This document shows, piece after piece, positions 6,417-22,373 of a DNA stretch of 64,000 nucleotides. The notes below the pieces were generated by a model. That model was not told the DNA's origin and searched no databases. It saw nothing but the letters and a program-made list of their open reading frames with translations. Position 1 is the first letter of the stretch. Every line of letters begins with the position of its first letter. This stretch comes from Acuticoccus sediminis (GTDB lineage Bacteria; Pseudomonadota; Alphaproteobacteria; Rhizobiales; Amorphaceae). The stretch is taken from NCBI RefSeq assembly GCF_003258595.1, contig NZ_QHHQ01000002.1, positions 1,178,001-1,242,000 on the forward strand, read 5' to 3'. The translations under genes and the position numbers were made by a program.

Positions 6417-7496
6417 TCACGACCGCTCGAAGACGCGCGGCTGGTAGTGGGGCGCGATGTCCGCCGTCCGCTGCCACGTGGCGGCGACGGCGTCGGCGTA
6501 GGCGAGCGCCGGAGTGGCATCGCATTCCAGCATGCTGAGCGCCGCCTTCGCGGCCTCGGGCGCGGACGCGAGGGCGTTGGCGAGACCCTGGCTCGCGATC
6601 GGGTCGAAGCTCGCCGCCGCGTCGCCGACAGCGAGCCACCCCGGCCCGCACGCGAGCTTCAGCCGGCTCGGTGTCGCGTCGGCGACCCGGAGCCGCGCAT
6701 CGCAGAGGGTCTCCGCCGGGAGGCCGAGCGCATCGGCCATCACGGCGAGACGGTCCCGCCCCGCGCCACGCCGAAGGTCGCCGGTGTCGCTTCCCAGAAG
6801 CGCGAACGACAGGCCCGACGGCGCGGCCACGGCATACCACCACCCACCCGCCGCCGGATCGCCCGGCGGCGTCGCCCGGTCGAAGGCGGCAACGACGAGC
6901 GTCCCGGCGCGGATGGCCGCGTCGCACGTGCCGCACAGCGCGATGAGCCGGTGTCCCGCAACACGTCGCGCGCTGACCTGACGGGCAACGCGCGCCGCCC
7001 GCCCCGTCGCGTCGACGACGACCGCCGCGCGGACGGTCTCTCCGGCGTCCGTCCCGAGGCGCCAGCCGTCGGCGCGGGTCAGCCGCATGACGCGTGTCGC
7101 CCGTCGGACGGTGACTCCGGCCGCCTCGCACCGGGCGAGGAGCATCACATCGAAGCGAGGCCGGTCGACGACGAAGCCACGGCCTCCCGGCGCGCCGATG
7201 AGCGGTTCGGTCTCCACCGGCCGGCCCGGCCAGCGCCGCACGATGGCGTGGAGGGGACGGGCGAGGTCCGGATCGCCCTCCAGCCTCTCCAGAAGGTCCA
7301 GCGCCGCCAGCGCCGGGACGGCGTTGGGGGTCAGCACCTCGCCCGGCGCAGGACGGTGCGGGACCCTGGCGTCGCGCGCGTCGAGCAGGACGACGCGGCA
7401 GCCCATCCCGGCGAGGATCGCCGCCGTGGCGGCACCCGCGGGTCCGCCACCGGCGACCGCGACGTCATAGACCCCTCGCCCGGCCGGCCGAACCAC
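6417..7496 (-). CDS. lodB: LodB-like FAD-dependent monooxygenase (CTQ maturation)
   Basis: 359 residues with an N-terminal FAD-binding Rossmann motif (DVAVAGGGPAGAATAAILAG, residues 11-30) and a late GD motif (WLAVGDAAASFDPIASQG) typical of the tryptophan-halogenase/PHBH-like flavoproteins that include LodB and QhpG. LodB-type proteins are needed to hydroxylate the precursor Trp when cysteine tryptophylquinone is built in LodA-type oxidases. Here it starts 2 bases after the stop of the LodA-like gene, the arrangement of known lodAB pairs, so it should act on that protein. It is the last gene of the operon. Assignment to this specific role rests on similarity plus the partnership. Confidence 0.85.
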   Translation of the reverse strand: MVRPAGRGVYDVAVAGGGPAGAATAAILAGMGCRVVLLDARDARVPHRPAPGEVLTPNAVPALAALDLLERLEGDPDLARPLHAIVRRWPGRPVETEPLIGAPGGRGFVVDRPRFDVMLLARCEAAGVTVRRATRVMRLTRADGWRLGTDAGETVRAAVVVDATGRAARVARQVSARRVAGHRLIALCGTCDAAIRAGTLVVAAFDRATPPGDPAAGGWWYAVAAPSGLSFALLGSDTGDLRRGAGRDRLAVMADALGLPAETLCDARLRVADATPSRLKLACGPGWLAVGDAAASFDPIASQGLANALASAPEAAKAALSMLECDATPALAYADAVAATWQRTADIAPHYQPRVFERS

Positions 7497-7498
7497 CG

Positions 7499-9460
7499 TC
7501 AGACCTCGCCCTGACGGAACCGGTGCCGTGGCGGCACGACCGGCTCGGCCGGCGCGGGGCCGGCCGCCTCGACCACGGGCGCCTCCCCGACGAGCCCCTC
7601 GACGGCATCGACGAAGTCGATCTTCGGGTCAGACCCCGCGTTGCGGCGGTCGCGGCCGACCTCGACATGCAGCACCCCGGGAAATCCGTCCCCGACGAGA
7701 GCCCGCGGGGCGGCGACCGGTTCCACCACGCCGAGCGTCTGCCAGAGCGCCACCATGTTGTTGATGCGCTCGCGGTAGGAGCGCCCCCGCACGTCCCGCA
7801 GCCAGTCCTCCCGGTGGAACGCGTGCTTCAGGCGCTGCAGCGGCAGCGCCTCGTCCGCCGGGCTGGAGGCGCGTCCGAAGGAGGCGCTGGAGAGCACCTG
7901 CTCGGGCACCCGCGTCCCCCAGAAGCTCGGAAACGACAGGTACGTGCTCGGCGCGTAGTCCGCCGAGGAGTTGCAGGAGGCCTCGTCGGTCTGCCAGGGA
8001 ACGCCCAGCCAGCGGGTCAGCGCGCCGGGACCGGCGGCGGCGTTCGGGCCGTTCGGGCCGAGGCACGTGTCGCGCGTCAGCGTCTCGCCGAAGTCCTGCC
8101 GCACCGGCGTGCCCTCCGGCACGAGATGGAGGCGGTAGGCGTCGCATTCCCTCGGTGCGGCGGTGTGGGACCGCGCCCAGAGGGACGCCCGCCGCATCGG
8201 CCAGGTGAGCTCGATCCCGGGATGGAAGGGCCCGCCGAGGCACTCCGTCAGTCCCGCCCGGTTGAGATGCCCGACCTGCTCCGCCGGCGGAAGCGAAGCG
8301 AATTCGGGAAGGCGCGGCGGGTCGAGCGTCCCGGCGGTGAAATCGCCCGCCGCCCATCGCGTCAGGTGGGCATACTGCGTGGCGGTCACGGTCAGGAACT
8401 CGATCCCGGGGTCGTTGGTCTCGCCCGTCAGGTCGCCGTAGATCATCGGCATCTGGGCCTGCGAGGCGGGGCCCGGCCCGGCCGGGTCGCGGAACAGGGC
8501 GAGCACCCGCTCCCGCCACCCCCGGTTGGCCGGAGCGGCGTCGGCGAGGCGCGCCACGACCTCCCGGTTGCGCGCGTCGAGCGGGGAGCCGACGCCGTGG
8601 GCGACGAGGAAGCCGTGGTTGATCCACTGCATGCCCGTCAGCCGGTCGAAGATCGGCCAAACGTCCTCGGTGAAGCGGGTCGTTGCCGGTGCCGGCAGCC
8701 AGCCCTCCGCCATGAACGTCTCGCGCACCGCGTCGTCCATGGTGACGAGGCCGAGAAGGCCCGGCGCGTAGTTCGGCGGTGTGACCACGACGTACCCCGG
8801 CGCGGCCTCGAACGGCGTCCCGGCCACGGTGACCGTCGCGCGGACCGGCCCGTCGGCGATGTCGTCGTGCCAGCCGTCGTTGTTGGCGAAGGTGACCGCC
8901 GCGGTTCCGGGGATCATCGGCGCGGAACGGCCGTGGCCGCCGAGGACGAGAAGCCGCCCGTCGCCGTCGGTCCGGATCTCGCCGAGGTCGACGCGGCGGC
9001 CCGCGAACGTTCCGTCGTCGAAACGCTGCGGAGGGGCGTTCGCGCCGGCGATGGTCCGCGCACCGGGCCGGATGTCGAGCGCGGCGCGGTCCGGGAAGGC
9101 CGCGTTTCGGCGCGCCGCGGGCGCGACGTACTGCGCCGGAAGGTCCATCGCGACATTGAAGGCGTACCAGCCGGCCTTCAGGTTGGCGACCTCGACCCGC
9201 CACGCGATAGCGACGTCCGGACCCTGGACGAGTTCGACGATGTCGCCGGAGGTCAGCCCGGCGTAGATGCGGAAGCGGACCGCCTGGCGCCTGATGGCGC
9301 CGGATGCGCTCTGGTAGCCGCCGCGCGGGTCGGACGGCGCGCCGATCACCTCCGGCGCGAGAACGTAGTCGTCGGCTCCGGTCGCATCGCCGAGGCGGGC
9401 GATGCCGATCGGCGGGTAGACGGCGACCCAGGCGATGTCGTCGGGGGCTACCGATGTCAT
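7499..9460 (-). CDS. lodA: LodA/GoxA-type CTQ-dependent amino acid or amine oxidase
   Basis: 653 residues, close to the family's usual 650-750. LodA proteins oxidatively deaminate amino acids (L-lysine epsilon-amine, glycine and others) to give aldehyde, ammonia and hydrogen peroxide, using a quinone made from their own Cys and Trp. The signatures are here: IAWVAVYPPIGIARLGD (9-25), DDIADGPVRATV (199-210), TPPNYAPGLLGLVTMDD (227-243), TATQYAHLTRW (359-369), C407 in ECLGGPFHPGIE, and W489 in GALTRWLGVPWQTDEASC. C407 and W489 align with the CTQ-forming pair. No signal peptide is visible, as expected for this family, which is secreted without one. Substrate specificity cannot be read. It overlaps the upstream gene by 4 bases (ATGA). 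Confidence 0.9.
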   Translation of the reverse strand: MTSVAPDDIAWVAVYPPIGIARLGDATGADDYVLAPEVIGAPSDPRGGYQSASGAIRRQAVRFRIYAGLTSGDIVELVQGPDVAIAWRVEVANLKAGWYAFNVAMDLPAQYVAPAARRNAAFPDRAALDIRPGARTIAGANAPPQRFDDGTFAGRRVDLGEIRTDGDGRLLVLGGHGRSAPMIPGTAAVTFANNDGWHDDIADGPVRATVTVAGTPFEAAPGYVVVTPPNYAPGLLGLVTMDDAVRETFMAEGWLPAPATTRFTEDVWPIFDRLTGMQWINHGFLVAHGVGSPLDARNREVVARLADAAPANRGWRERVLALFRDPAGPGPASQAQMPMIYGDLTGETNDPGIEFLTVTATQYAHLTRWAAGDFTAGTLDPPRLPEFASLPPAEQVGHLNRAGLTECLGGPFHPGIELTWPMRRASLWARSHTAAPRECDAYRLHLVPEGTPVRQDFGETLTRDTCLGPNGPNAAAGPGALTRWLGVPWQTDEASCNSSADYAPSTYLSFPSFWGTRVPEQVLSSASFGRASSPADEALPLQRLKHAFHREDWLRDVRGRSYRERINNMVALWQTLGVVEPVAAPRALVGDGFPGVLHVEVGRDRRNAGSDPKIDFVDAVEGLVGEAPVVEAAGPAPAEPVVPPRHRFRQGEV

Positions 9461-10134
9461 GGCGTCCTGTCGTCGAAGCGGAGGTCGACGGTATCGTCCG
9501 CCACCACCTGCTCCTCGAAGCCGGTGGAGCGCAGGACCCGCACGCGGGCCCGCTCGGCGCCCGGGAACTGGTTGCGGTCGATCTTCATGTCGGCGGTCGG
9601 GCGGCCGACGGCGATGGTGTGCCAGGTGCTCTCACCCTCCGGCAGCACCTCGACGGTGAACGTCACCCCGTCGGCAGGCGCCATCTTCATCCGCGGCGAC
9701 ATCATCCGCGCGTTCTCGCCCGGAAGGCCCGGGCCGAGATCGACGCCAGGGGCCTCGGCATGAGCGCCCGCGCCCGGCGCCTGCATCGCCGCCCCGGGTC
9801 TGAAGGTGTCGACGGTCTCGCCCGAGAGCTTCAGCTCCAGCGCGACGGTTCCGGCCGGCACCGGGATCTTCGTGTCGATCAGCGCCTCGGACGGGTCGTG
9901 GGCGTCGCTCGGAAGCTGGGCCGGGACGGCGGTCTGCGACAGCGTCGCGCCGGCGGCGTTCTTGGCGAAGATCTCGATCATCGGCGTCTTGCGCGGCCGT
10001 TCCAGGCGCGGCTGCGTCTCGGCCGCCGTCGTCGGCGCACGGCTCGACGGCAGGACGTAGAGGATCTTGCCGGCCTTCTTCGCAAAATCCAGGCTGCCGA
10101 TGACCTGGACCACGCGCTCGGGATCGTCAGGCAT
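9457..10134 (-). CDS. hypothetical beta-sandwich-like protein
   Basis: 225 residues, family not recognised. The N-terminal 15 residues (PERVVQVIGSLDFAKKAG) are followed by a Pro/Thr/Ala-rich linker. The C-terminal half (VTFTVEVLPEGESTWHTIAV, then NQFPGAERARVRVLRSTGFE) has the alternating pattern of an Ig- or fibronectin-like beta-sandwich; similar stretches occur as accessory domains in secreted peptidases. It lies between the metzincin-like peptidase and lodA, overlapping the latter by 4 bases, so it is probably a partner of one of the two. No catalytic motif is visible. Confidence 0.7.
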   Translation of the reverse strand: MPDDPERVVQVIGSLDFAKKAGKILYVLPSSRAPTTAAETQPRLERPRKTPMIEIFAKNAAGATLSQTAVPAQLPSDAHDPSEALIDTKIPVPAGTVALELKLSGETVDTFRPGAAMQAPGAGAHAEAPGVDLGPGLPGENARMMSPRMKMAPADGVTFTVEVLPEGESTWHTIAVGRPTADMKIDRNQFPGAERARVRVLRSTGFEEQVVADDTVDLRFDDRTP

Positions 10135-10155
10135 GCTCGTGTCCCCTCGTTCCGG

Positions 10156-11505
10156 TCACGAGATCTGCGGTGCGAGCACCGCGTCTTCGTGCAGGAGTTG
10201 GTCAAGGATCGCGTTGAAGGTGTAGGCGGACATCCACTGCCGGTCCGCGTACGTCATGACGTCGTGCCATACGCTGCCGGGCAGCGCCGCCATGGGCAGG
10301 CCGAGGTCCGGATCACCGACGTCGAAGCCGACGTGGTGCTTGCGCTGCTCGGCGACGCTGTTGTCGGTGATGAAGCCGCCGGGATAGGGCCATGTCTTTT
10401 CCAGCGGATCAGGCGGCTGGTTGGCGGGCGGAAAGCCCGGGTGGCGGCGCTGGAAGGTGTGCGAGAGCTCGTGGCAGCCGTACCAGTCGGCGAAGGTCGG
10501 GTCGGTGTCCCAGACCCAGAAGGACGGCACCCCGCAGGGCCCGCACGCCACAGGGCCGAACACCTCCGTCATCTCGTCGTAGATCGCCGCGCCGCGCATG
10601 AAGCTGCTGCCGCCCTCGAAGTCGACGAGGCCGTAGTAGTGGGTCCGCGGATCGCGGCCGGAGGCCACCTCACGCGCCCGGATCGCGAGGAGCTGCGCGT
10701 TGACGAGGTTCGACTGGAACGCCGGGAAGCCCCCGGCCACCTGCGGCACCAGATTGTCGCCGTCGACGACGATCTGCGACCACTCCACCTCCGCCGTCGG
10801 GTAGGTCCGCACGAGGAAGGAGCGCAGGTGCGCGAAGTGCGTGGCGTCCGGCGTGATGACCGTCGCGTCGCGCACGCTGTGGTAGCGCAGGCCGACGGCG
10901 CGGATGCGCAGCACCGGCGCGCCGCGGAAGCTCACCGTCAGCGCCGTCTCGACGCCCGGAAGGTCGGCCGTGGGGCCGAGACCGTCGAACGGAACGTCGG
11001 CGCCGCCCGGCACCATGAGGCGGTTCAGCCGGATGCTGAGGTCGCCCTCCCGCACGGCGTCCGCCGGGAGCTTGAAGTTGAGGCTCGCGGCAGCGTCGTG
11101 GCGGCGGTCGTGAAGGTCGCTGGCAACGGCCGGGCCGACGTCGACGCGGTTCATCGCCGGCAGGAAGGACCAGCCGCCGGTCCCCCGCCGCCATGCGATC
11201 TCGCCCGTCACGATGGCGGGCGCGGTGAACGACTGCGGGTCGACGTAGATGCGCACGATCGTGGTCTTGCCGGCGATCAGCGGGACGTCGTTGTCGAGAC
11301 TCTGCACCACCTGCGCGATCTCGACGCCCTCGATGATCGCGATGTCGCCCGGGGCGGCCCCCGCCGCGGCGCGGAGTTCGACGGCGGGCGCCGGCCGGAT
11401 CTGCGGCGCGGCGTAGGGACAGCAGGGCGGCGCGGCCCTCTCGACGGCTGGTTCCGGAGCCATGCCGCGGTCGCGGGGATCAAGGTCTCGGTGCTCGTCG
11501 GCCAT
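10156..11505 (-). CDS. metzincin-like zinc peptidase
   Basis: 449 residues. H345-ELS-H349-TFQRR-H355 gives the HExxHxxxxxH spacing of metzincins (zinc ligands H345, H349, H355; catalytic E346), and HDVMTY (414-419) is a good Met-turn around M417. The usual Gly of HExxHxxGxxH is replaced by Gln. Residues 40-270 form a beta-rich region (IEGVEIAQVVQSLDNDVPL, VRIYVDP) that looks like a binding or adhesion domain. The N-terminus has CCPYAAP but no ordinary signal peptide. Inside an operon for protein-derived quinones, a peptidase may clear a propeptide or act on an operon product, as the subtilisin-like QhpE does in the qhp system. That role is inference. Confidence 0.75.
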   Translation of the reverse strand: MADEHRDLDPRDRGMAPEPAVERAAPPCCPYAAPQIRPAPAVELRAAAGAAPGDIAIIEGVEIAQVVQSLDNDVPLIAGKTTIVRIYVDPQSFTAPAIVTGEIAWRRGTGGWSFLPAMNRVDVGPAVASDLHDRRHDAAASLNFKLPADAVREGDLSIRLNRLMVPGGADVPFDGLGPTADLPGVETALTVSFRGAPVLRIRAVGLRYHSVRDATVITPDATHFAHLRSFLVRTYPTAEVEWSQIVVDGDNLVPQVAGGFPAFQSNLVNAQLLAIRAREVASGRDPRTHYYGLVDFEGGSSFMRGAAIYDEMTEVFGPVACGPCGVPSFWVWDTDPTFADWYGCHELSHTFQRRHPGFPPANQPPDPLEKTWPYPGGFITDNSVAEQRKHHVGFDVGDPDLGLPMAALPGSVWHDVMTYADRQWMSAYTFNAILDQLLHEDAVLAPQIS

Positions 11506-11532
11506 GGCCTATCCTTCAAAACATCAATGTGT

Positions 11533-12585
11533 TCATGAACTTGCCGCGACCCGAACCGGCCGGGGCACGAGCCGGGCGTCCCGGTGCGAGGCGTCCAGCT
11601 GCAGGATGGCGGGCGCGGCGACCTCGCGGCGCAGGTGCCGGGCGTGGTCGCGCATCGCCGCGACGGCGGGCGCGAAGGCGGCGGCGCAGCGGGATCGGGC
11701 GTAAAAGTCCGCGGCGCCCGCGAGGTGGGCCGCGTGGGCAAGGGCGAGGCGTGTCAGGTAGTGCCGCCGCACCGCCGTCCGGTCGCCGGGTGCGGCCGTC
11801 GCCACCGCCGCGCCGAGCACCGCGCCGCGAACGGCCCGGCCGACGCCGCTCCCGGACAGCGGGTCTTCCGCGCATGCCGCGTCGCCGACGAGGATGGCCC
11901 CGCACGGGGCGATGGGGTCGCCGAAGGCGGGCGTCGCGTCGCAGGCGACGGGAGGCGCCGCGGCAAGCCGCTCCAGCGTCGCGGACCAGCCGCGCCCCGC
12001 GAGGGTGCGCCGGGCGAGTTCCCGGGCCAGCTCGTGGCCACCGTCGCCCGGCAGGACCACCTGAACGGAGACCTGAGCGCCGGCCGGCGCCACGAACACC
12101 CAGCCTTCCAAGTGCGCCTCGAGGACCGCGCGTCCGACCGGCCCGGACAACGGAACGGTCCAGCCCCAGGCCGTGCGTGCGCCCGAGCGGAGCCGGGCCG
12201 ACCGCCCACGGCCGGTGGCGTCGAGGACCTCGTCGAAGGAGCGTTCCGGCGGTGTTTCCACGACGGTGATGCCCGGCGGCAGGCGCTCCTCCATGGCGGC
12301 CGTCAGCGACCGGAGCGGGACGGCGACAAGCTCGCCGGGGACGGTTTCCGGCGGTCCGGGGCTCCACGCGAGCTCGCGCACCGCGATCGGGGCCGGCGCG
12401 ACGGCGGCGAGAACCTCCCTCCCCAGTTCCAGCGCCAGCAGGTCGACGACGGAGGGGTCGAGCGTGACGATGCGGTCCGAGTGGTGCGGCGGACCGGCGA
12501 GCACGACGCTCCACCCCGCCCGCGCCAGCCGGCGCGCGGCCACCAGCCCCGCGACGCCCCGCCCCCGGATCAGCGCGAGCGACAT
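11533..12585 (-). CDS. second LodB/QhpG-like FAD-dependent oxidoreductase
   Basis: 350 residues from the ATG at 12585. The reading frame is open much further upstream, but that part overlaps the next gene in the wrong frame and has non-protein composition. The N-terminus has a nucleotide-binding GRGVAGLVAARRLARAGW, and residues 240-260 carry VGDAACAEDPLSGSGVGRAV, the second FAD motif of the PHBH/halogenase fold. It is distantly related to the LodB-like protein at the operon end. Two such enzymes beside two LodA-type targets suggests one modifier per target; this one follows the ferritin/LodA-C fusion gene by 56 bases. Its proposed substrate is inference. Confidence 0.75.
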   Translation of the reverse strand: MSLALIRGRGVAGLVAARRLARAGWSVVLAGPPHHSDRIVTLDPSVVDLLALELGREVLAAVAPAPIAVRELAWSPGPPETVPGELVAVPLRSLTAAMEERLPPGITVVETPPERSFDEVLDATGRGRSARLRSGARTAWGWTVPLSGPVGRAVLEAHLEGWVFVAPAGAQVSVQVVLPGDGGHELARELARRTLAGRGWSATLERLAAAPPVACDATPAFGDPIAPCGAILVGDAACAEDPLSGSGVGRAVRGAVLGAAVATAAPGDRTAVRRHYLTRLALAHAAHLAGAADFYARSRCAAAFAPAVAAMRDHARHLRREVAAPAILQLDASHRDARLVPRPVRVAASS

Positions 12586-12641
12586 GGTCGTCCCCGGCGG
12601 CCGGAAGGTGGCGGGCGGTCGGACGTCCGGCGGCGCATCGG

Positions 12642-14579
12642 TCAGCGGCCGCCGTCGCCGAAGCCGGCGAAACGCTCTTCCAGCGTCGCGACCCGTGCCC
12701 GCATCGAGCGGACAAGGGCGTCGGCCGCGGGGTCGAGACCGGCGGTCGCCGCCTCCAGCGCGGGAGCGACGCCGCGCTTGATGAACTCGGCCGGCGACAC
12801 GGGCACCGGCGCGGCCGCCTCCGTCACCGGTCCGCGCATCGACACGCCCCCCGACACCGCCGGTTCGGCCGGAAGTATGAAGAGCGGGGCGCCGCCGTTG
12901 GCCGCGGCGGTCCGTGCCGCCTCGTCGAGGTTGTACATCAGCTCGCGGGCGCCGGTGATCAGCGCGTCCGCCTCGACGATGTTGCGCGGGGTGAACACGA
13001 GCGCCAGCAGCTCGATTACCTGCGCATAGGCGACGTTGGCGATCCGCTCGAACACGCTCGCGGGTGCCGCCGCCGGTAGCGGGGCCGGGTTCTCCGTCAG
13101 GCGGATGTAGAGGTTCGGGTCGAGCCCCTGCAGGCGCTCGCGCACGCGCAGGAAGCGCTGATAGTGGTCCTGCCCTTCCTCGATGATCAGCTTGATGAGC
13201 TGGAGGAGGCGCTCCTTCACCTCCCCTGTGAACGCGTCGCCCTGCTCGATACTGAGGAGGAGGCGCGTGTACATCCCGTCGATGGTGTCGTCCGCCGCAT
13301 CGGGATCGAACGCCTCGCTGGGCGCCTCCACGGTGATGAACCAGTCGAGCCGCTCGGGCACGAGCGGGGTGAGCGAGAAGGTGTGGGTGAGGCCGCGCCC
13401 GTCGCGGTCGATGTCGGGCAGGGTCTCGAACCGGCCGAGCTCGTGCCGCTCGCCGACGGCGAGGAGCATCTCGTTGACCCAGCGCAGGTGCCGCATCTCG
13501 TCGATGGCGACGCTGAGCACGGTCTGCGCGGCCGACACCACCCGCTGGCGGGACTCCATGTTGTCCGCGAACGCGTTCTGGTCCAGCGAATAGTAGGCGT
13601 AGAGGTACTCGACCATCAGCCCGTGCTCGACGGTGGCGAGTTCGCGCAGGGCCCGCACGATCGTCGCGCGGTCGAGCACGTCCTCGTCCGGCAGCCGCGG
13701 CGCGGTCGCCACCGCCATCGCCCGGCCCTCGATGCCGTCGAAGACCGCCGGCAGCGTCTCCCACCGCTCGATCATCTCGACCTCGCCAATGTCGAGCGAC
13801 TGCCATGTGCCGTAGTCCGTGACCGGGACGATCGGCTGCGGGTTGACGCGGTCGCGCTGAAAGTTGGCGATCTGCGGCGTATCGGCATCGGGACTGACGA
13901 GATCCGGCTTGTTGGACGCCCAGTAGAAGCAGCCGCACAGGGCGAAGTCGTACTGCCACGGCGAGCAGAGGCTGCGCGTCAGGTCGCCGGGATGGTACTC
14001 GTCCGGGTCGATGACGCCGTTGTCGTCGAGGATGCGGGCGCGCTCGCCGGTGACGAAGGCGAACCGCAGCCGCCCGTCGCCCTGGCGCGTCACCTCGATC
14101 GCCGGGTTGCCGCCGGCGAGGTAGGCGACGAAGGCCTCGACGATACGCTCCCGCGGCTCGACGCTCCCGAAGGGGGCGAGCGCGAGGGCGACGCGCCCGG
14201 GCGACAGATCGTGCACCACCCGCCAGTCCTGCAAGCCTCCGGACGGCCCGATCTGTGCCACCTCCTCCGCCGCCTCGCCGAAGGTGCCGGCGACCGCGAC
14301 GAGGACGATGCCGGCGGGGAGGTCGCCGGCGAGCGCAGCGTGGATCGGTGCCGCGCGGGCAGGGTCGATGGTGCGAAGGACCGCCTGGGCGTGCAGCTCG
14401 AACTCCAGACCCGGGAAGAAGCGCTTGTCGAGGTTGCGCTGGTCGAACTCGAGGCCGGGGAACGAGTTGTCGACGCCGCTTTCCGGGCGCGTCGTCACCG
14501 GATTGCCGGCGACGACCGGGTGGCTGCGGGCGGTGGAATTGCGCGGATAGAGCTTCCGCGGCGGCGGTGTCGGCATCAT
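12642..14579 (-). CDS. LodA C-terminal-half protein fused to a VioB-type ferritin-like domain
   Basis: 645 residues from the ATG at 14579, which overlaps the radical SAM gene's stop (ATGATGA). Residues 1-290 resemble the C-terminal half of LodA: SFPGLEFDQRNLD (39-51) matches the PFHPGIELTW block, GDLTRSLCSPWQYDFALC (198-215) matches GALTRWLGVPWQTDEASC of the complete LodA, and VEMIERWETL matches the terminal NNMVALWQTL. The Cys that forms CTQ in LodA is not at its usual place, but C205, C215 and C217 flank W208. Residues 300-480 are a ferritin-like four-helix domain of the VioB/RebD type: VEHGLMVEYLYAYYS, DEMRHLRWVNEMLLAVG (E361, H364) and IIEEGQDHYQRF, giving a likely di-iron or iron site. 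Known VioB-type domains act on imines from amino acid oxidation. The combination is one I do not know. Confidence 0.8.
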   Translation of the reverse strand: MMPTPPPRKLYPRNSTARSHPVVAGNPVTTRPESGVDNSFPGLEFDQRNLDKRFFPGLEFELHAQAVLRTIDPARAAPIHAALAGDLPAGIVLVAVAGTFGEAAEEVAQIGPSGGLQDWRVVHDLSPGRVALALAPFGSVEPRERIVEAFVAYLAGGNPAIEVTRQGDGRLRFAFVTGERARILDDNGVIDPDEYHPGDLTRSLCSPWQYDFALCGCFYWASNKPDLVSPDADTPQIANFQRDRVNPQPIVPVTDYGTWQSLDIGEVEMIERWETLPAVFDGIEGRAMAVATAPRLPDEDVLDRATIVRALRELATVEHGLMVEYLYAYYSLDQNAFADNMESRQRVVSAAQTVLSVAIDEMRHLRWVNEMLLAVGERHELGRFETLPDIDRDGRGLTHTFSLTPLVPERLDWFITVEAPSEAFDPDAADDTIDGMYTRLLLSIEQGDAFTGEVKERLLQLIKLIIEEGQDHYQRFLRVRERLQGLDPNLYIRLTENPAPLPAAAPASVFERIANVAYAQVIELLALVFTPRNIVEADALITGARELMYNLDEAARTAAANGGAPLFILPAEPAVSGGVSMRGPVTEAAAPVPVSPAEFIKRGVAPALEAATAGLDPAADALVRSMRARVATLEERFAGFGDGGR

Positions 14580-15862
14580 CCCACTCCCTTGTCGTTGGCG
14601 GGCGGACCAGCGAAATAGTCCGGCCGAAGGGTGCTGATCTCGGCGTAGCTGGCGAGCAGGAAGGTCAGCCAGCCGCGGATGTAGTCGCAGGCCGGCCGTC
14701 CGCGCTCGACGACCTCGTGGTGGCAGCCGCCGCCGCACATGAAGCGGGCCCAGCAGCTCCGGCAGGGCTCCTGCGCGAGGACGTGGCGCGACGCGAGGAA
14801 GGCCGACCGCCGCGCATGGTCCGGCCCGGCGAGGACGTCACCCATGGCGAAGCGGTCGTCGTTGACCGCGCGGTGGCAGGCGTAGAGCCCGCCGTCCGCG
14901 GCGACCGAGCCGTACCCCGCTCCCGCCCCGCACGGGTACGGGCGGTGCGTGCCGCGGGCGATCTCGCCGAGCGCGATGGTGAAGTTCGAGAACGGCAGGT
15001 CGCCGCCGGCGAGGATCGCGTCGCGCGCGGCCTCCCCGCACGTGATCATCTCAGCGAGGAGGCCGGCGATGTCGTCCCGGTCGAAGGCGTAGTCCGGATC
15101 GGGCGAGACGAGGACGGGGGCAAAGCCGACCGATTCGGCGCCCGTCGCGACGAGGTCCCGAAGGGTCGCGAGCAGCGGCCCGCTGCGCGGCGTGACGGTC
15201 GCGCGGATGCTGACGCGCGCCCCGTCCGCGGCCAGAAGGCGCGCGAGGCCCTCGCGGGCCGCCGCCGTGCTGCCGCGGCCCCTCTTGTCGGGCCGCAGGG
15301 CATCGTTGACGGCGGCGGGACCGTCGAGGCTGACGTTGGCGGTGAAGCGGTGGGCGGCGAAGAACGCGGCGTCGTCCTCTGTCACCATGGTCGCGTTGGT
15401 GGTGAGGGAGAAGCGCAGGTCGATCCCCCGCCGTGCGGCCTCCCCGCTCGCCCACTCCGTCACCGCGCGCACCAGCGGCCGGTTGAGAAGCGGCTCGCCG
15501 CCCATGAAGCCGAGCACCGCCCGCCCCGCCGGCTCGGCCTCGCGCAGCAGCAGCTCGACGGCGCGGATCGCCGTCTCGGCGGACATCACCTTCGTCGCCT
15601 CGCCGAAGTGACCGCGGTCGGCGTAGCAGTAGCGGCAGGCGAGGTTGCAGGCCTGCGCCACGTTGAGGGACAGCGCGTGGAGCGGCGGCGGGGCCGGCGC
15701 GACCCCGTCGACGTACGGGCGGGCCGCCAGCGCCGGCGCCGCGTCGAAGCGGCCCGCCAGGATGTCTTCGAACGTCTCCTCGTCGACGTCGTAGATGCGG
15801 CTGCCGTCGACGAAAAGGGCATGCCGGCCGACCGCACTCGCGAAGGGAAGGACATCGACCAT
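14576..15862 (-). CDS. radical SAM/SPASM peptide maturase (QhpD-like)
   Basis: 428 residues. C72-NLA-C76-RY-C79 is the canonical CxxxCxxC that binds the SAM [4Fe-4S] cluster; GFMGGEPLLN (118-127) is the SAM-contacting GGEP motif. The C-terminal third is Cys-rich in SPASM style (YPCGAG, LYACHRA, EPCRSCWARFMCGGGCHHE), so it should bind one or two auxiliary clusters. Enzymes of this type modify peptides; QhpD builds Cys-to-Asp/Glu thioether bonds in quinohemoprotein amine dehydrogenase. It sits exactly between the two genes that look like a split LodA, overlapping one by 4 bases and lying 9 bases from the other, so one of these is the likely target. Confidence 0.88.
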   Translation of the reverse strand: MVDVLPFASAVGRHALFVDGSRIYDVDEETFEDILAGRFDAAPALAARPYVDGVAPAPPPLHALSLNVAQACNLACRYCYADRGHFGEATKVMSAETAIRAVELLLREAEPAGRAVLGFMGGEPLLNRPLVRAVTEWASGEAARRGIDLRFSLTTNATMVTEDDAAFFAAHRFTANVSLDGPAAVNDALRPDKRGRGSTAAAREGLARLLAADGARVSIRATVTPRSGPLLATLRDLVATGAESVGFAPVLVSPDPDYAFDRDDIAGLLAEMITCGEAARDAILAGGDLPFSNFTIALGEIARGTHRPYPCGAGAGYGSVAADGGLYACHRAVNDDRFAMGDVLAGPDHARRSAFLASRHVLAQEPCRSCWARFMCGGGCHHEVVERGRPACDYIRGWLTFLLASYAEISTLRPDYFAGPPANDKGVG

Positions 15863-15871
15863 CGCTCGACC

Positions 15872-17329
15872 TCAGACCCCCGTGACCTTGCGGCTCCACA
15901 GCCGCACCAGCTCGTACTGCCGGCGGCTGAGGTGCATGGGCTGACCGTCCGAGCCGCGCATCAGCGCCGGCATGCGCCGGTCGAACACGCCGAACTGGTC
16001 GCGCGGCGGGCGCAGCCAGCGCTCCACGAAGGACGGGTCGTCGCGCAGGCGGTCCTTGAGGTATTGCAGCGCGTTGAGGCGCCGGTGCTTGCGGTTGCCG
16101 GCGAAGGTCACCGGCATGCTGTCGACGCGGGTCGCGAGGTTGCCGTCGACCGCCGCGGCGGGCCACATCGTGCCGATCGGCGGCGCTTCGGCGTCGGCGG
16201 ACGGCGGCGGCAGCCCGGGGGTTCCGTTGGTGGCGCGCGAGCGGCCGGCCTGGGCGTCCTTGTTCATCATGTCGGAGGTCTCGAGCGCGCGCTCCAGGAT
16301 GTCGCCGACGACGGCCTCCAGCTCATCCATCGACAGGGCGGCATCGGCGACGTCGGTGCGGCGCATCCGGTCGGCGAGACCGTCCTGGAGCGACACGAAG
16401 GGCCGTGCGGCGGGCGCGAAGTCCGGCGGGCCGACGGCGACGCGCGCGAACGCCGTCGGCAAGCCGGCGACGGTGCAGCGCACCAGCCCGTCGCTGACGT
16501 CGTCGACGAGGCCGACCGAGCGTCCGCCCCGCAGGGTCGCGGCGAGGCCCTGCGGCGACACGCGCTGGTCCCGCGGCACCGGACCCGGCGCGCCGAGCCC
16601 GCCGATGATCGCCGTCGCCCACCCGGACTGCGGGTTGAGGACGCGCCGCTCCGCCGGGAGCTGGAAGTCGCGCCACTGCGGGTCGGCGGCGATCCGGGCG
16701 GCGAGGTCCGTCGGCCCGTAGACGACGCCGGCGGGCGCATACACCCTCAGCCGCAGCCCCGGCAGCTCCGCCGACGGACGCACGGCCTGAATCGCGCCGA
16801 GGACGACCGCCGCGCCGGACGGCACCAGCCGCTGCGCCTCCGGTCCCGGCGAGCCGGCCGCGAGGGACTTGCGCACGGTGTCGGTCGCGGCCGCCTCGGC
16901 GGTCGCCTCCACCCGGTCTCCGTCCCGCAGCGTGTAGTGGTAGGGCTTCAGGTTGGCGACGGTGACGGACCACATGACGTCGCCGAGCCCGAGGCCGGCG
17001 CCGTTCAGCACCGCCTCGGTGACCGGCCCCTCGTGCTCGGTCCCGTCGTCCGTCCACGCACCGTGCAGCTCGAAGAAGGGGCAGACGGGAAAGAAACGGT
17101 CGTCATCGTCCTTCAGCGCGATCGCGCCGAAGGCGTCGGCCGGGGTGACGGTGGCGTTGCCGTCCGCGTCGAGGTCGATCGTGTCCTCGGGGACGAGCGT
17201 CGTCTTGGACGAGATGTCCGGCGACACCGGCGGTGCCGACCACGAATAGGCCTGGCAGGGCCGGCCGGCGGACCCGACGCGGCCGAACGCCAGCGGCGGC
17301 AGGAGCCACACCTTGTTGATGACGATCAT
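15872..17329 (-). CDS. LodA N-terminal-half protein (split LodA)
   Basis: 485 residues, no named family on its own. Several blocks match the N-terminal 370 residues of the complete LodA in this operon, in the same order: VMWSVTVANLKPYHY (118-132) with IAWRVEVANLKAGWY; DDVSDGLVRCTV (276-287) with DDIADGPVRATV; GPPDFAPAARPFVSLQD (300-316) with TPPNYAPGLLGLVTMDD; MPALMRG then SRRQYELVRLW (453-478) with MPMIYGD then TATQYAHLTRW. It stops where LodA would continue into the CTQ-bearing half, which is encoded two genes downstream. The two are probably subunits of one split enzyme. The first 60 residues do not match LodA. Confidence 0.75.
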   Translation of the reverse strand: MIVINKVWLLPPLAFGRVGSAGRPCQAYSWSAPPVSPDISSKTTLVPEDTIDLDADGNATVTPADAFGAIALKDDDDRFFPVCPFFELHGAWTDDGTEHEGPVTEAVLNGAGLGLGDVMWSVTVANLKPYHYTLRDGDRVEATAEAAATDTVRKSLAAGSPGPEAQRLVPSGAAVVLGAIQAVRPSAELPGLRLRVYAPAGVVYGPTDLAARIAADPQWRDFQLPAERRVLNPQSGWATAIIGGLGAPGPVPRDQRVSPQGLAATLRGGRSVGLVDDVSDGLVRCTVAGLPTAFARVAVGPPDFAPAARPFVSLQDGLADRMRRTDVADAALSMDELEAVVGDILERALETSDMMNKDAQAGRSRATNGTPGLPPPSADAEAPPIGTMWPAAAVDGNLATRVDSMPVTFAGNRKHRRLNALQYLKDRLRDDPSFVERWLRPPRDQFGVFDRRMPALMRGSDGQPMHLSRRQYELVRLWSRKVTGV

Positions 17330-17365
17330 CGGCGTCGACCTCCCTCCCCTCGTTGCGGTCCGGTC

Positions 17366-18475
17366 TCAGATGCGCGTGTGGATCGCCGCGCGCCCCATCG
17401 CGGCCGGCGGCCCGGCGCCGAGCGACTCCGGTTGTGCGCCCGACGGAAGCGGGGCGCCGAAGCAGCCGCCGAGCGGGCGCACCACCGCCTGCCCGAGCCT
17501 GTGGGCGAGGCCCACCACCTTGATGCGGATCTTGTCCGCCACCTGCCCGCCGAAGCGGATCGGCTGGCCGTCGATCTCGATGTCGCCGATGCCGAAGCCG
17601 GCGCCCTCCGGCACCTCGAGCACCCCGCGCACGTGATGTCCCTCGACGCCGCGCGTGAAGCGCCACACCGTTTCCGGCGAAGCACCGCCGGGAAGGCTCC
17701 ACCCGGTGAAGGAGATGCTCTCGAAGGAGAGTTCCGGCGGGTCGGCGAGCGAGACCGTGTGGCCCGCCCGCGCCAGATCGTTGATCGCCTCGCCGATGGT
17801 CGGGTCGCTGTGCCGGTTGGGGACGCCGTAGGCGCCGCAGCGGATCAGCTCCTGCGCACCGGTCATGACGCTGCCGTCCGGCCGCGCCCGCACGACGCTG
17901 GCACCCGCCGCGAGTTCGATCGCCGCGCCGATGGTGTTGGGCGCGGCGATCATGTGCATCGCGCCGGTGCTCGAGTTGGCGTTCCAGCGGTTCTGCGTCA
18001 GGTACCGGCCGGCGGCGTCGAAGATGTCCCGCCGCTCCACCTGCGGCGAGACGTGCTCGCGGTAGAGGTCCAGCACGGTCTCCGGCTGGTGGCGGGCGAG
18101 GAGACGGAAATACTCGCGGTCCTCGCAGGTGAAGGTGATGCGCACGATCGTTCCGTCCTCGGCCCGGTCGACGCTCCACTCGCAGTATTCGACCTGACCG
18201 CTCCGCGATTCGTCGCCGATGACCCAGCGCTCCTCGTCGGACGCGGAGGCGGTCGTGATGGGGAGCGGGAACGCGGCCCAGCCGACGGGCTGGGTGACGG
18301 CATCGTCCTCGATGCCGTCGGCGGGGTTGAAGAACTGGTTGCGCGGTCCGGCAAACGTCGCGATCGGGGTCTGGGTCGAGCTCTCGAAGTAGCTTCGGAC
18401 CTCCTTGTCCCAATCGTCCAGCGCGACCTCGTTCAGGTCGGTCAACCCGCCGGGCGGGGAGAAAAACGTCGCCAT
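17366..18475 (-). CDS. conserved-looking protein of unknown function, 369 residues
   Basis: I do not recognise the family. No signal peptide is evident (MATFFSPPGGLTDLNEVALD). It has well-ordered, gene-like composition with blocks such as ERWVIGDESRSGQVEYCEW (about 82-100), ITFTCEDREYFRLLARHQPE, LTQNRWNANSSTGAMHMIAA (about 165-185) and CGAYGVPNRHSDPTIGEAIN. The C-terminal 130 residues are beta-rich with a Gly-Pro-Ala tail. The isolated Cys and His residues do not form a known metal motif. Position two in the CTQ operon, 36 bases before the split-LodA N-half, points to a structural subunit or assembly factor of that enzyme. Confidence 0.7.
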   Translation of the reverse strand: MATFFSPPGGLTDLNEVALDDWDKEVRSYFESSTQTPIATFAGPRNQFFNPADGIEDDAVTQPVGWAAFPLPITTASASDEERWVIGDESRSGQVEYCEWSVDRAEDGTIVRITFTCEDREYFRLLARHQPETVLDLYREHVSPQVERRDIFDAAGRYLTQNRWNANSSTGAMHMIAAPNTIGAAIELAAGASVVRARPDGSVMTGAQELIRCGAYGVPNRHSDPTIGEAINDLARAGHTVSLADPPELSFESISFTGWSLPGGASPETVWRFTRGVEGHHVRGVLEVPEGAGFGIGDIEIDGQPIRFGGQVADKIRIKVVGLAHRLGQAVVRPLGGCFGAPLPSGAQPESLGAGPPAAMGRAAIHTRI

Positions 18476-18494
18476 GGCGTCCTCGGCCTCGTGT

Positions 18495-20042
18495 CTAAGA
18501 GATCAGGTTGGGGGCGGCGCGCACGGTCCCGTCGGCCACCATCTCGAGCGGGTCGGCGTCCTCCGGCTCGCTGGAGAAGGGCAGCGTCAGGTCGAACTCC
18601 GACACGCCGAGGGTTCTGAAGTAGCGCCGCCGCGAGGCGACCAGCCGGACGAGGTCGTGGGCGCCTTCAGGCGTTGCGAGGCGCGCCCGCACGGCGGCGA
18701 CGTAGGCCGCCAGCTCCTCGCCGAGCGCGGTTCGGGACGCGGCCTCGTCGCCCTCCATCCGCGCGACGACCTCGGCCTCCACCGAGCCCGGCGATCCGGC
18801 CGCGGCGGCGGCCAGCGAGGCGAGCGCCGCGGCCTCGACCGAGCCGTCGCCGGTTCCGGCCGCGCCCTCGTCCGGAAAGTGGCGCAGGAGGGTGGCGCGG
18901 CGGGCCGACTGGATCGGGTTGGCGAAGTCCACCGCGAGCAGCGCGCGGGCGAACCGCCGGCTCAGCACCCCGCGCTCGATCAGCGTCATGATCACGTCGA
19001 GATCCTCGAACGCCGGAGCCGGGCAGGCGAGCACGAAGAAGCTGTCGCCCGGGCGGGCGAACCCCGAGCGTTGCTCGCGCAGCTCCACGCCAAGCTCGGC
19101 GACCGCCGCCCGGTAGAGCGCGCCGGGAACGGTCGTGCGGCCCCGGATCGCCAGCGGGTCGAGGATGTCGGCCGCGGTCCAGAACTCGCGGTTGAGGTGG
19201 ATCTCGAGGGGGACGGTGACGGCCGTCGTGTCGTCGATCAGCGAGAACTCGGTCGGCGAGGCGACGAGATTGACGGTGGTGGTCTCGACCACCTGCCGGA
19301 AGAGCGTCCGCGCGCCACGGATGCGGCCGCCATCGGTCGCGGAGTCGAGCCGCGCCTTCGTCCAGCGGCGGATGCCCGGGACGATGACCTGCGTCTCGAG
19401 GATCTCCGCGCCCCGCGCCTCGGTGAAGAACGGGTGGTTCACGATCGGATGGCCCGGCGCGAACGCCTCGCGCGCGATGCCGACGGTCTGGCTCTGCCAG
19501 TGCAGCCACGGCTGGCGCAGCTCCTTCATCACCAGCGAGCCGTTGACGTGTCCGTCGAACGGTCCGGTCATGCGCGTCGGCGGGTTCAGCGCGCGGGTTC
19601 CGTCGCCGGAGTGGAACCAGACGCCCTGTCGCCGCTGGTAGAAGTTGTAGGCACGCTTTTCGGGGTCCCAGCCGAGGATCTGCAGGAGGCCGTCGCCGGC
19701 GCCCGGCCGGTCGTCGAGGCTGATCATGACCACGGGCGGCCCGTCCGGCCCCGCCGCGCCGCGCAGGACGACGACGAAGCGCAGCGCGCGGGCGAGCCGC
19801 GCGGTCGCGTCGGTGAACGGGATCTGCCCGCCCTCGCCGACGACGAAGCTCAGCCGCTCCGGCACCGCGCTCGCGGCGAACTCGGGACGCGCAGACGCGG
19901 CAGCGAGGAGCGCGACGACGGCATCCACCGACTGCGGACGCTCGCCGCGGCGCAGCGCGAGCACGGCGAACGGGTCGGCCAGAGCGTCGAGCTCGGCGTC
20001 CGTCATCACCTGTCCCGGTGGGGTGTCGAGGCCGACGATCAT
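18495..20042 (-). CDS. first gene of the CTQ operon, unknown function, 515 residues
   Basis: Family not recognised. Started at the ATG at 20042; the frame is open to 20237, but the extra 65 residues run through the AT-rich promoter region. Blocks that look conserved: LQILGWDPEKRAYNFYQRRQ, GPFDGHVNGSLVMKELRQPW (about 165-185), HPIVNHPFFTEARGAEILET, GIRRWTKARL. There are no transmembrane segments and no obvious signal peptide. The C-terminal part (about 400-515) is helical and Ala-rich. It lies 19 bases before the next gene and heads the operon. It may be a further subunit of the split oxidase. The start codon is the weakest part of this call because no good ribosome-binding site precedes it. 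Confidence 0.65.
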   Translation of the reverse strand: MIVGLDTPPGQVMTDAELDALADPFAVLALRRGERPQSVDAVVALLAAASARPEFAASAVPERLSFVVGEGGQIPFTDATARLARALRFVVVLRGAAGPDGPPVVMISLDDRPGAGDGLLQILGWDPEKRAYNFYQRRQGVWFHSGDGTRALNPPTRMTGPFDGHVNGSLVMKELRQPWLHWQSQTVGIAREAFAPGHPIVNHPFFTEARGAEILETQVIVPGIRRWTKARLDSATDGGRIRGARTLFRQVVETTTVNLVASPTEFSLIDDTTAVTVPLEIHLNREFWTAADILDPLAIRGRTTVPGALYRAAVAELGVELREQRSGFARPGDSFFVLACPAPAFEDLDVIMTLIERGVLSRRFARALLAVDFANPIQSARRATLLRHFPDEGAAGTGDGSVEAAALASLAAAAAGSPGSVEAEVVARMEGDEAASRTALGEELAAYVAAVRARLATPEGAHDLVRLVASRRRYFRTLGVSEFDLTLPFSSEPEDADPLEMVADGTVRAAPNLIS

Positions 20043-20491: not shown

Positions 20492-21925
20492 TCAGCCGAG
20501 GGCTTCGGCCATGTCCTCGGCGGCGCAGCGCCGCATCGTCGCCCACAGCGCCTCGATGTCGGGCCACTCGGTGCCCAGCGCGCCGATCGAGACGCGGACC
20601 ATCCATCGGCCGTCGAGGGTCGCCGGCGTCAGGTACGCCTCGCCGGAACGGTTCACCGCGTCGGCCCACGCCCTCGTGTGACGGTCGAGCGCCTCGCCGG
20701 TGAGGCCGGCCGGCTGGTGGCGCAGGCACACGGTCTGGAGGTCGACCGGCGCCAGCACGCGCCAGTCCGGCGTGGTCTCCACGACCGCCGCGAAGCGCTT
20801 GGCGTTGGCGAGATCGCGCCTCAGCCGCGCCATCAGTCCGGCAACGCCCTGCTCGCGGATGACGAACCAGAGCTTGAGCGCGCGGAACCGGCGGCCGAGC
20901 GGGATGCCGAGGTCGCGGAGGTTGCGCACCTCCCCGTCCACCGGCGACTGCAGGAAGGACGGATTGGTCGACATCACGCGCACGAGGTGCTCCTCGTCCC
21001 GCACGTAGTAGAGCGAGCAGTCGAACGGCACGCCGATCCACTTGTGCGCGTTGATGACGAGGCTGTCGGCGCCCTCGACGCCCTCCCACATCCACCTGCA
21101 TTCGGGCAGGATCATCGCCGCCCCCGCCATCGCCGCGTCGACGTGGAGCCACAGGCCGTGCTCGCGGGCGATCCCGGCGCAGTCGGCGATGGGGTCGAAG
21201 GAGGCGGTCGCCGTGCCGCCGACGCAGGCGACGATGGCCGAAGGGACGTGCCCCGCCGCGATGTCCGCCTCGACGAGGGAGCGCAGCACGTCCGCCCGCA
21301 TGCCCTGCCGCTCGTCGAGCGGTACGTTGCGGATGTTTTCCCGCCCGTAGCCGGCGAGGAGCGCGCCCTTCTCCACCGAGGAGTGGCTGCCGGCGGAGGC
21401 GTAGACGATGTGCCGCCTCTCCTCGCCCTGCATGCCGCCCCGCGCCAGGCTGAACGCGGTGGACCGTTCGCGCGCGCACATGAGCGCGACGAGGGTGCTC
21501 GTCGACGCGGTGTCGTTGATGACGCCGCGCCACCCGTCCGAGAGGCCGACCATCTGGCGGAACCAGTCGACCGTCACCTCCTCCACCTCGCTCAGCGCCG
21601 GGGAGGACTGCCAGGAGAGGCCGAGGACACCGAGCCCCGTGCTCGCCATGTCGCCGAGGACCCCGGCCAGCAGCGCGTTGCCGGGGAAGAAGCCGAAGAA
21701 GCGCGGATGCTGCCAATGGGTCAGGTGCGGCGCGACGATCGCGTCGATGTCGGCGAGGCAGGCCTCGAACGGCTCCCCCTCCTGCGGCGGCGCCGACGGC
21801 AGCAGCGCTCGCACATCGCCGGGATGCGTCGGCGGCTGCACCGGCCGGTCGCCCAGTCCGGCATGGTAGTCGGCGATCCAGTCGATCAGCGCGTGGCCGT
21901 GCCGACGAAAACTCTCCGGGTCCAT
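20492..21925 (-). CDS. PLP-dependent L-amino acid decarboxylase (group II, aromatic type)
   Basis: 477 residues from the ATG at 21925 (GGAAGGAGC upstream). It removes the carboxyl group of an amino acid, probably aromatic (Trp, Tyr, Phe or Dopa), to give an amine. Group II features: HWQHPRFFGFFPGNALLAG near residue 70, GVINDTASTSTLVAL, the PLP-stacking and Asp region HVDAAMAGAAM, and the Schiff-base lysine in SLVINAHKWIGVPFDCS. The common TPTAST-like serine block is intact. It lies upstream of and on the same strand as the CTQ operon, about 450 bases away, so it could supply an amine or share a pathway. Exact substrate unknown. Confidence 0.9.
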   Translation of the reverse strand: MDPESFRRHGHALIDWIADYHAGLGDRPVQPPTHPGDVRALLPSAPPQEGEPFEACLADIDAIVAPHLTHWQHPRFFGFFPGNALLAGVLGDMASTGLGVLGLSWQSSPALSEVEEVTVDWFRQMVGLSDGWRGVINDTASTSTLVALMCARERSTAFSLARGGMQGEERRHIVYASAGSHSSVEKGALLAGYGRENIRNVPLDERQGMRADVLRSLVEADIAAGHVPSAIVACVGGTATASFDPIADCAGIAREHGLWLHVDAAMAGAAMILPECRWMWEGVEGADSLVINAHKWIGVPFDCSLYYVRDEEHLVRVMSTNPSFLQSPVDGEVRNLRDLGIPLGRRFRALKLWFVIREQGVAGLMARLRRDLANAKRFAAVVETTPDWRVLAPVDLQTVCLRHQPAGLTGEALDRHTRAWADAVNRSGEAYLTPATLDGRWMVRVSIGALGTEWPDIEALWATMRRCAAEDMAEALG

Positions 21926-22373
21926 CACAAGCTCCTTCCGTCCCACTCCGCCCCCGCGCGAAACGCCGGCCGGCGTCGCGCCGGCTCTGGCGCCTGCGCC
22001 GCCGCATGTCCATGCCCGACGGCCCGGCCGGGCCGCGCTCCGCCGTGCGACCCGGCCGGACCGGTCCCGCCACGGGAGGGCCGCCGGCGGGGGCGCGGGC
22101 GATGATGGGCGCCCGCGAGGCGTCCGTCGAGCGCCGCAGCCGACGCCGGTGCGGCGCCGGGACGGACGGCCGGGTGACGGTGGGGGCAAAGCGGGAAGGA
22201 TCATCGGCACCTGTGAGCAAATGCCCAGGCGCCGGTCAATTGTAACAGAAGCGTCGTCAAAGTGTCGTCGTGGCGTCGTGCGGCGCGCTTAACCGGCGCC
22301 TATCGAGCCGTTCCCCTCGGCTTGCGACTGGTCCGGCGCCCACCCCTCGCGCCCGTTCATCAGGAGTCGACAC
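21926..22373. promoter_or_regulatory. divergent control region, decarboxylase and ABC transporter
   Basis: About 450 bases without a supportable gene. The left 270 bases are extremely GC-rich. The right part is more AT-balanced (gtcaattgtaacagaagcgtcgtcaaagtgtcg, about 22236-22268) with short GTCGT repeats, and should hold the promoter of the solute-binding protein gene, whose AGGAG lies 7 bases before its ATG. No definite operator was identified. Confidence 0.4.

Follow-up and report, generated by a model that had tools for sequence, protein, structure and literature searches.

A predicted split LodA-type protein with a QhpC-like cofactor site, encoded beside radical SAM and flavoprotein genes in a ten-gene operon of Acuticoccus sediminis

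A ten-gene operon on contig NZ_QHHQ01000002.1 of Acuticoccus sediminis (assembly GCF_003258595.1) probably has genes for two quinoproteins. The first, g9, is a GoxA-like oxidase that would be matured by a flavoprotein (g10), and the second is an enzyme (g3-g5) combining a split LodA-type protein with a cofactor site like that of QhpC, which would be matured by a radical S-adenosylmethionine (SAM) enzyme (g4) and a flavoprotein (g6) and have a ferritin-like partner. The DNA analyzed, hereafter called the window, is a stretch of 64,000 nucleotides, and coordinates are those of the window unless a homologous locus is named. Ten open reading frames (ORFs) occupy positions 6417-20042, all on the minus strand and in the transcriptional order g1 to g10, with intergenic distances of 19, 36, 9, -4, 56, 27, 21, -4, and 2 bases, just as an initial annotation made from the letters alone had it (gaps of at most 56 bases, or 4-base overlaps). 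An alternative start of g1 further upstream, at 20237, is possible. Genes g3, g4, g5, and g6 are referred to below as module A, and g1, g2, g7, g8, g9, and g10 as part B. To our knowledge, two systems that use cysteine tryptophylquinone (CTQ) are known, LodA/GoxA and quinohemoprotein amine dehydrogenase (QHNDH).

Profile comparisons identify g3 and g5 up to about residue 290 as the two halves of one LodA-type protein. The LodA/GoxA-family models used were PF17990, PF18417, NF038172, and NF038173. In single sequences the split protein is weakly visible: g3 scores 15.2 bits against LodA_N (Pfam cut-off 26.3) and g5 20.5 bits against LodA_C (cut-off 25), and a naturally fused homologue, L070, scores 24.8 and 23.0 bits, both slightly under the Pfam cut-offs. 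It becomes clear once homologue profiles are used. Every one of the 11 distinct PDB sequences matched by a profile of 23 g3 homologues is a GoxA or a LodA (E 7e-9 to 7e-7), and with a profile of 14 naturally fused homologues, GoxA or LodA again accounted for 11 matches out of 11 (E 6e-4 to 7e-3). LodA_N was detected in 12 and LodA_C in all 14 of these fused proteins at E <= 0.1, and LodA_C in 18 of 25 g5 homologues at E <= 0.01. In hhalign comparisons, whose E-values refer to a single pair with no database size, the fused set gave a collinear alignment to six LodA/GoxA-like proteins in which the cofactor Cys residues coincide (probability 97.8, E 7e-13); g3 alone also aligned well with them (98.1, E 8e-14), and g5 alone weakly with the LodA-like set (42, E 3e-4). 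By profile, both LodA domains are thus homologous and in the same order in g3 plus g5, g5 by itself being weak. A further profile, A1, matched LodA residues 496-517 in the PDB, ending just past Cys516 (E 0.04), and in a search of 398 genomes of the window's phylum it also picked up two ordinary LodA proteins (G061 and G165) at their cofactor region.

Natural fusions point the same way. Homologous regions were collected as 90 loci, namely 10 plasmid regions (of 18 records matching g5) and the best 80 of 200 loci from a genome scan in which 200 of 215 pattern matches encode relatives. In 19 of the 90, g3 and the front part of g5 form a single reading frame, to which L053 adds the ferritin-like domain in a triple fusion. 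The plasmid records collected annotate both halves as 'hypothetical protein' or 'ferritin-like domain-containing protein'. The initial annotation had proposed a second LodA split into proteins of 485 and 645 residues. That proposal is supported, the g3 and fused profiles matching only GoxA/LodA in the PDB; for the 645-residue protein it holds for residues 1-290, and a C-terminal ferritin-like domain (PF12902) had been missed. The AlphaFold model of the fused L070 protein (14-row alignment) is poor, with a mean predicted local distance difference test (pLDDT) score of 56, and a Foldseek search with it gave no match at E <= 0.001. Weak matches of this model to PDZ domains (GRASP55) were seen (L070 8633-10792; probability 0.85-0.98, E 0.13-0.28).

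The published cofactor residues of LodA are C516 and W581, 65 apart (PMC4417212), and those of QhpC are C37 and W43, six apart, beside a bridge between C41 and D49 (PMC7876137). The predicted cofactor site of g5 resembles that of QhpC more than that of LodA. It comprises Cys205, Asp211, Cys215, Cys217, Trp220, and Asp226, of which Cys205, Asp211, Cys217, and Asp226 occupy the places of C27, D33, C41, and D49 in QhpC, and Cys215 and Trp220 those of C37 and W43, the QhpC reference being four sequences taken from plasmid records. Two further thioether pairings in QhpC we take to be C27-D33 and C7-E16. Relative to the QhpC pattern g5 has two small indels, the C215-W220 spacing being one residue shorter and the middle Cys shifted. 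The Cys-Trp distance is 5 in g5 and 18 in six g9-type proteins, there counted from the aligned Cys to the presumed Trp; in the sequence alignment the g5 cofactor Cys falls on the LodA Cys, and its Trp on the g9-type Trp across a shortened loop. All six site residues are invariant, in 11 of 11 sequences of one alignment and 30 of 30 of a larger one. A loose QhpC pattern is found in all four QhpC sequences and in the 91 module-A proteins (the window and 90 loci). The ORF set holds 6,267 further proteins, with six ordinary LodA proteins among them, and the pattern occurs in none of these, nor in any of 4,550 shuffles.

The two genes that adjoin g3 and g5 are related to QHNDH maturases. The best score of g4 is against the QhpD model TIGR03906 (287 bits, under the cut-off of 453), and it also scores 224 bits, under the cut-off of 340, against the PapB ranthipeptide model NF047865; its earlier description as a radical SAM/SPASM maturase stands. 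In a radical SAM tree, 32 module-A rows, chosen from 87 loci and the window having a match, split from four QhpD rows with support 100/100. The best score of g6 is against the QhpG model NF049967 (83.2 bits, cut-off 240), and g10 scores 150.3 bits against the GoxB/LodB model NF038174 (cut-off 400), so that the two LodB/QhpG-like flavoproteins of the initial annotation are both recovered, both below cut-off. A tree of the flavoproteins joins g6 to 11 others from module A with support 100/99, and places g10, again at 100/99, with four whose genes lie next to LodA genes. QhpC forms a ternary complex with QhpD and QhpG, and QhpG puts both oxygens on Trp43 (PMC7876137), which fits both maturase genes being beside the carrier gene. 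PapB, which falls in a group with QhpD, forms thioethers between Cys and Asp (PMC11002830).

On this basis, g4 would form the Cys-to-Asp thioethers Cys205-Asp211 and Cys217-Asp226, as QhpD does on QhpC; g6 would then hydroxylate Trp220, as QhpG does; and the Cys215-Trp220 link would close last, yielding CTQ in g5. The mature g3-g5 protein may oxidize a primary amine or amino group (of an amine or amino acid) with O2 to give an imine and H2O2. That g5 instead acquires an ordinary LodA-style CTQ through the flavoprotein alone, with g4 acting on another target, for instance g9 or a small peptide that escaped notice, appears improbable. It would agree with g4 scoring under the QhpD cut-off, and with LodA/GoxA needing no radical SAM enzyme, only LodB/GoxB being named in the relevant part of one account (PMC7876137). 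However, the additional Cys205, Cys217, and Asp226 correspond to the QhpC bridges, in a pattern found in none of the six ordinary LodA proteins, and g9-type LodA genes occur in only eight of the 90 loci, while nearly all loci have the radical SAM gene.

The remainder of g5 carries a ferritin-like domain, for which metal binding and a reaction with O2, H2O2, or the imine are proposed. Residues 315-426 match PF12902 (58.9 bits), and the same domain was found in 25 of 25 homologues. The g5 AlphaFold model (25-row alignment) is good in this domain and in about residues 50-180 and poor at the cofactor stretch; the sole Foldseek matches at E <= 0.001 were two chains of 3hl1 (E 5e-5 and 8e-5), a Caulobacter ferritin-like protein. 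Among 30 aligned sequences, the ligand-type residues E361, H364, H472, and E/D468 are kept in all, E318 and E418 in 29, and E324 in 27. In 56 of the 90 loci, one of them the triple fusion, the domain shares a chain with the cofactor part, and it was found somewhere in 85. Against the VioB model TIGR04492, g5 residues 283-422 score 31.6 bits (cut-off 1250). Residues ~55-180 of g5 (14040-14417), between the two LodA_C motifs, form an alpha/beta domain in the AlphaFold model. Of 14 control genomes, LodA_N was seen only in that of Caulobacter vibrioides, from which 3hl1, the nearest ferritin-like protein of solved structure, also comes.

The wide occurrence of this domain with conserved ligand-type residues lends some weight to another explanation, by which g4 would make structural Cys-Asp thioethers only, with no quinone, the ferritin-like metal site being active and the LodA-type part serving as a substrate-binding scaffold. 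The match of g4 to PapB, a thioether maker, and the loss of the LodA/GoxA FHPG His from most of the proteins would also suit it. It is nevertheless rather unlikely, given that Cys215 and Trp220 are invariant in 30 of 30 sequences together with Asp211, the Asp of all tryptophylquinone enzymes, and that a QhpG/LodB-type flavoprotein is encoded in 85 of the 90 loci.

The genes of module A travel together. Among the 90 loci, the N part was found in 84, the cofactor part in 90, the radical SAM gene in 86, the flavoprotein in 85, and the ferritin-like domain in 85, with all five in 75. Fifteen loci miss some function; nine of them (L042, L044, L046, L052, L057, L074, L082, L089, and L093) have the cofactor gene less than 2.3 kb from a contig end, which explains their gaps except for the missing ferritin-like gene of L074. 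Contig ends are not the cause in the other six, L010, L085, L048, L061, L067, and L076. No ferritin-like gene was found in L010 and L085, and no flavoprotein gene within about 10 kb in L048. L061 yielded no N part, its cofactor and ferritin-like parts lying in two ORFs, and in L067 the radical SAM and flavoprotein genes were not found locally, a radical SAM gene being present elsewhere in its genome. The N part and radical SAM genes of L054 (7079-10170) and the cofactor and ferritin-like part genes of L061 (10004-11410) are spread over several ORFs, and these copies therefore look broken or badly assembled.

Judged by record titles, the taxa represented among the 80 scan loci include Actinomycetota, Cyanobacteriota, Alpha-, Beta-, and Gammaproteobacteria, Myxococcota, Nitrospirota, Planctomycetota, Chloroflexota, Acidobacteriota, Verrucomicrobiota, Gemmatimonadota, and Bacteroidota. 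Within the window's own phylum, a search with g5 as a single query matched over the full length in no genome but the window's own, other matches being to ferritin-like parts. In a same-phylum sample, profile A1, for which the first pass scored at most three candidates per genome, likewise matched fully in one of 398 genomes, the window's own, with five ferritin-only matches besides; LodA_N was found in 12 of the 398. Fragments of a duplicated LodA gene in the course of decay could account for g3 and g5 both scoring below the LodA Pfam cut-offs next to an intact LodA in the same operon. The split form, however, is spread over many phyla, where its site residues do not vary and its partner genes are the same, and this very improbable explanation was rejected because the conservation data refute it.

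Module A usually stands without part B. An ordinary LodA gene lies near it in seven loci by score (L011, L015, L016, L030, L032, L033, and L038) and in L012 by annotation. About 0.009 such loci would be expected by chance (12 of 398 genomes, a 6-Mb genome, and 20 kb), so that with 7-8 of 90 observed, the two parts lie together more often than chance would have it. The earlier expectation that the gene set is kept together holds for the split pair and the radical SAM gene, with the exceptions given here; all ten genes together are found far less often than the split-LodA module. On rhizobial plasmids, L010 and L013 have tyrosinase-family genes beside module A, and L010 also a multicopper oxidase gene.

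Several observations weigh against a LodA-type g3-g5 protein with a QhpC-like, radical SAM-matured site. The occurrence of the six-residue pattern in 91 of 91 module-A proteins is partly forced, because the genome scan patterns ([SG]LC[SA]PW[QTS]xD[FY] and C[GA]C[FY]YWA[AS], at least one of which each genome locus matches) cover the site, Asp226 lying in neither. Aligned with QhpC by hhalign, g5 picks out exactly the site stretch, only weakly (probability 7, E 0.005), and the fused set gives probability 1 (E 0.05). The third QhpC bridge (C7-E16) is without counterpart in g5. The FHPG motif of LodA/GoxA was found in 89 of the 91 proteins, and only two of these keep its His, presumably His583 of GoxA. 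All of g3, g4, g5, and g6 score under equivalog cut-offs. Both AlphaFold models, of L070 and of g5, are unreliable at the cofactor stretch (pLDDT < 50), and no LodA or GoxA structure appears among the best 50 of 971 Foldseek matches listed for L070 or the best 50 of 369 for g5. The module-A flavoproteins are not one clade (two changes), with some long branches. In L076, which encodes the fused protein, the 3.1-Mb genome yielded no radical SAM gene.

In part B, g9 is the complete LodA-like oxidase that had been recognized at the outset, scoring over both Pfam cut-offs (LodA_N 211.7 bits, LodA_C 116.9 bits). Its closest solved chain is GoxA (E 1e-51) and its site is of the usual LodA type; it is not an equivalog, with 371.8 of 750 bits for GoxA (NF038173) and 142.4 of 600 bits for LodA (NF038172). 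It is probably an ordinary GoxA-like CTQ oxidase matured by the LodB-like g10. The metzincin-like character ascribed to g7 rests on HEXXHX5H and a later MTY, both kept in six of six aligned homologues; the Gly of the metzincin motif HEXXHXXGXXH occurs only in L032 and L038 and is absent from the window's g7, for which no Pfam family and, by profile search, no PDB relative was found. The three unrecognized proteins remain so by Pfam: g1, g2, and g8 have no match as single sequences, and for g1 and g2, Pfam and PDB profile searches gave no convincing family. Homologues of g1 lie near module A in L012, L015, L016, L018, and L036, and homologues of g2 occur in 12 of the 90 loci, those in L008 lying close to peroxidase genes. 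In Microvirga, g1 and g2 form one 907-aa protein (L015 12434-15157), and they therefore probably work together. The g8 gene is present in six of the 90 loci (L011, L012, L015, L030, L032, and L038), and g7 was found in L012, L015, L030, L032, and L038. Features of the operon are collected in Table 1.

Table 1. Features of the ten-gene operon, in transcriptional order (aa, amino acids).
Feature	Coordinates	Strand	Length (aa)	Assignment	Evidence
g1	18495..20042	-	515	part B; no Pfam family	
g2	17366..18475	-	369	part B; no Pfam family	
g3	15872..17329	-	485	predicted N-terminal half of split LodA-type protein	profile vs PDB, hhalign, natural fusions
g4	14576..15862	-	428	radical SAM/SPASM protein, QhpD-like	TIGR03906, 287 bits
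g5, residues 1-290	13710..14579	-	645 (whole protein)	predicted C-terminal (cofactor) half of split LodA-type protein	LodA_C, 20.5 bits
g5, residues 205-226	13902..13967	-		predicted CTQ site Cys215-Trp220 and thioether pairs Cys205-Asp211, Cys217-Asp226	
g5, residues 304-560	12900..13670	-		ferritin-like domain, likely metal ligands	PF12902, 58.9 bits
g6	11533..12585	-	350	QhpG-like flavoprotein	NF049967, 83.2 bits
g7	10156..11505	-	449	part B; metzincin-like	HEXXHX5H and MTY
g8	9457..10134	-	225	part B; no Pfam family	
g9	7499..9460	-	653	part B; complete GoxA/LodA-family oxidase	both LodA Pfam domains
g10	6417..7496	-	359	part B; LodB/GoxB-like flavoprotein	NF038174, 150.3 bits

Two genes flank the operon. 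A vanadium-dependent bromoperoxidase-like gene at 3450-5819 on the plus strand converges on its end (PDB 5lpc, E 1e-105), and its product would consume H2O2, the product of a LodA-type oxidase. Directly upstream, on the operon strand, lies a gene for a pyridoxal-dependent amino acid decarboxylase (20492-22060, minus strand; PF00282, 292.7 bits), which could supply amines. Neither was accepted as an operon member, no blastp match (E 1e-15) to them being found near module A in the 90 loci.

With VioB-type and other PF12902 proteins (3hl1, CC_0557), g5 shares the ferritin-like domain, which in g5, by contrast, sits on a LodA-type cofactor protein. With PapB-type ranthipeptide maturases, g4 shares a likeness of 224 bits; its predicted substrate is a large enzyme, whereas that of PapB is a short peptide. 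The resemblance to QHNDH lies in the QhpC-like pattern C-x5-D-x3-C..C..W-x5-D of g5 and in the adjoining QhpD-like and QhpG-like genes. The carrier here, by contrast, is a large LodA-type protein, QhpC being a ~9-kDa subunit with a third bridge that has no counterpart. None of the ten operon proteins matched the QHNDH alpha (di-haem) and beta subunits, the QhpE protease, or the QhpF transporter in the family-model searches, the Paracoccus cluster serving for comparison, and QhpC (PF08992) had no match in the window's genome in a search run without a positive control. The combination of LodA targets with qhp-like maturation put forward in the initial annotation is supported with these corrections, the QhpD-like g4 and QhpG-like g6 adjoining g3 and g5.

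To LodA/GoxA with LodB/GoxB, module A is tied by g3 and g5 1-290 being homologous, in that order, to LodA_N and LodA_C, and by PGxLTxxxxxPWQxDxxxC around the cofactor Cys. It differs in that the protein comes in two chains or fused, in a Cys-Trp spacing of 5 as against 65 in LodA and 18 in the g9 type, and in the added Cys and Asp residues, radical SAM partner, and ferritin-like domain. The initial annotation had described known LodA systems as lodA plus lodB only, which is too strict: LodA genes near ferritin-like, tyrosinase, or multicopper-oxidase genes have been published, as have LodA fusions with catalase-type, PF14518, and vWA domains, and fungal LodA genes near PF12902 ferritin-like genes (PMC4417212). 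In the literature covered on LodA, CTQ, QHNDH, and radical SAM enzymes, from which most subscription papers fall outside, no radical SAM partner for a LodA-type protein was found, so that novelty is not proved.

A broader interpretation is offered tentatively: module A might represent a third tryptophylquinone class, a LodA-fold oxidase, split or fused, that is radical SAM-stapled as in QHNDH and has a tandem metal-binding ferritin-like domain, in many cases carried by the one chain. Such a class would link both CTQ families, the QHNDH gamma-subunit then being a reduced relative of the LodA cofactor domain. If so, radical SAM enzymes would carry out thioether chemistry on an enzyme that is large and has several domains, and whether one CTQ system arose from the other could be tested, residues 205-226 of g5 and their likely maturases forming a precise biochemical target. 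LodA/GoxA and QHNDH had not previously been tied together in the literature found, and module A would combine a LodA/GoxA-type body with the kind of cofactor site and maturases seen in QHNDH.

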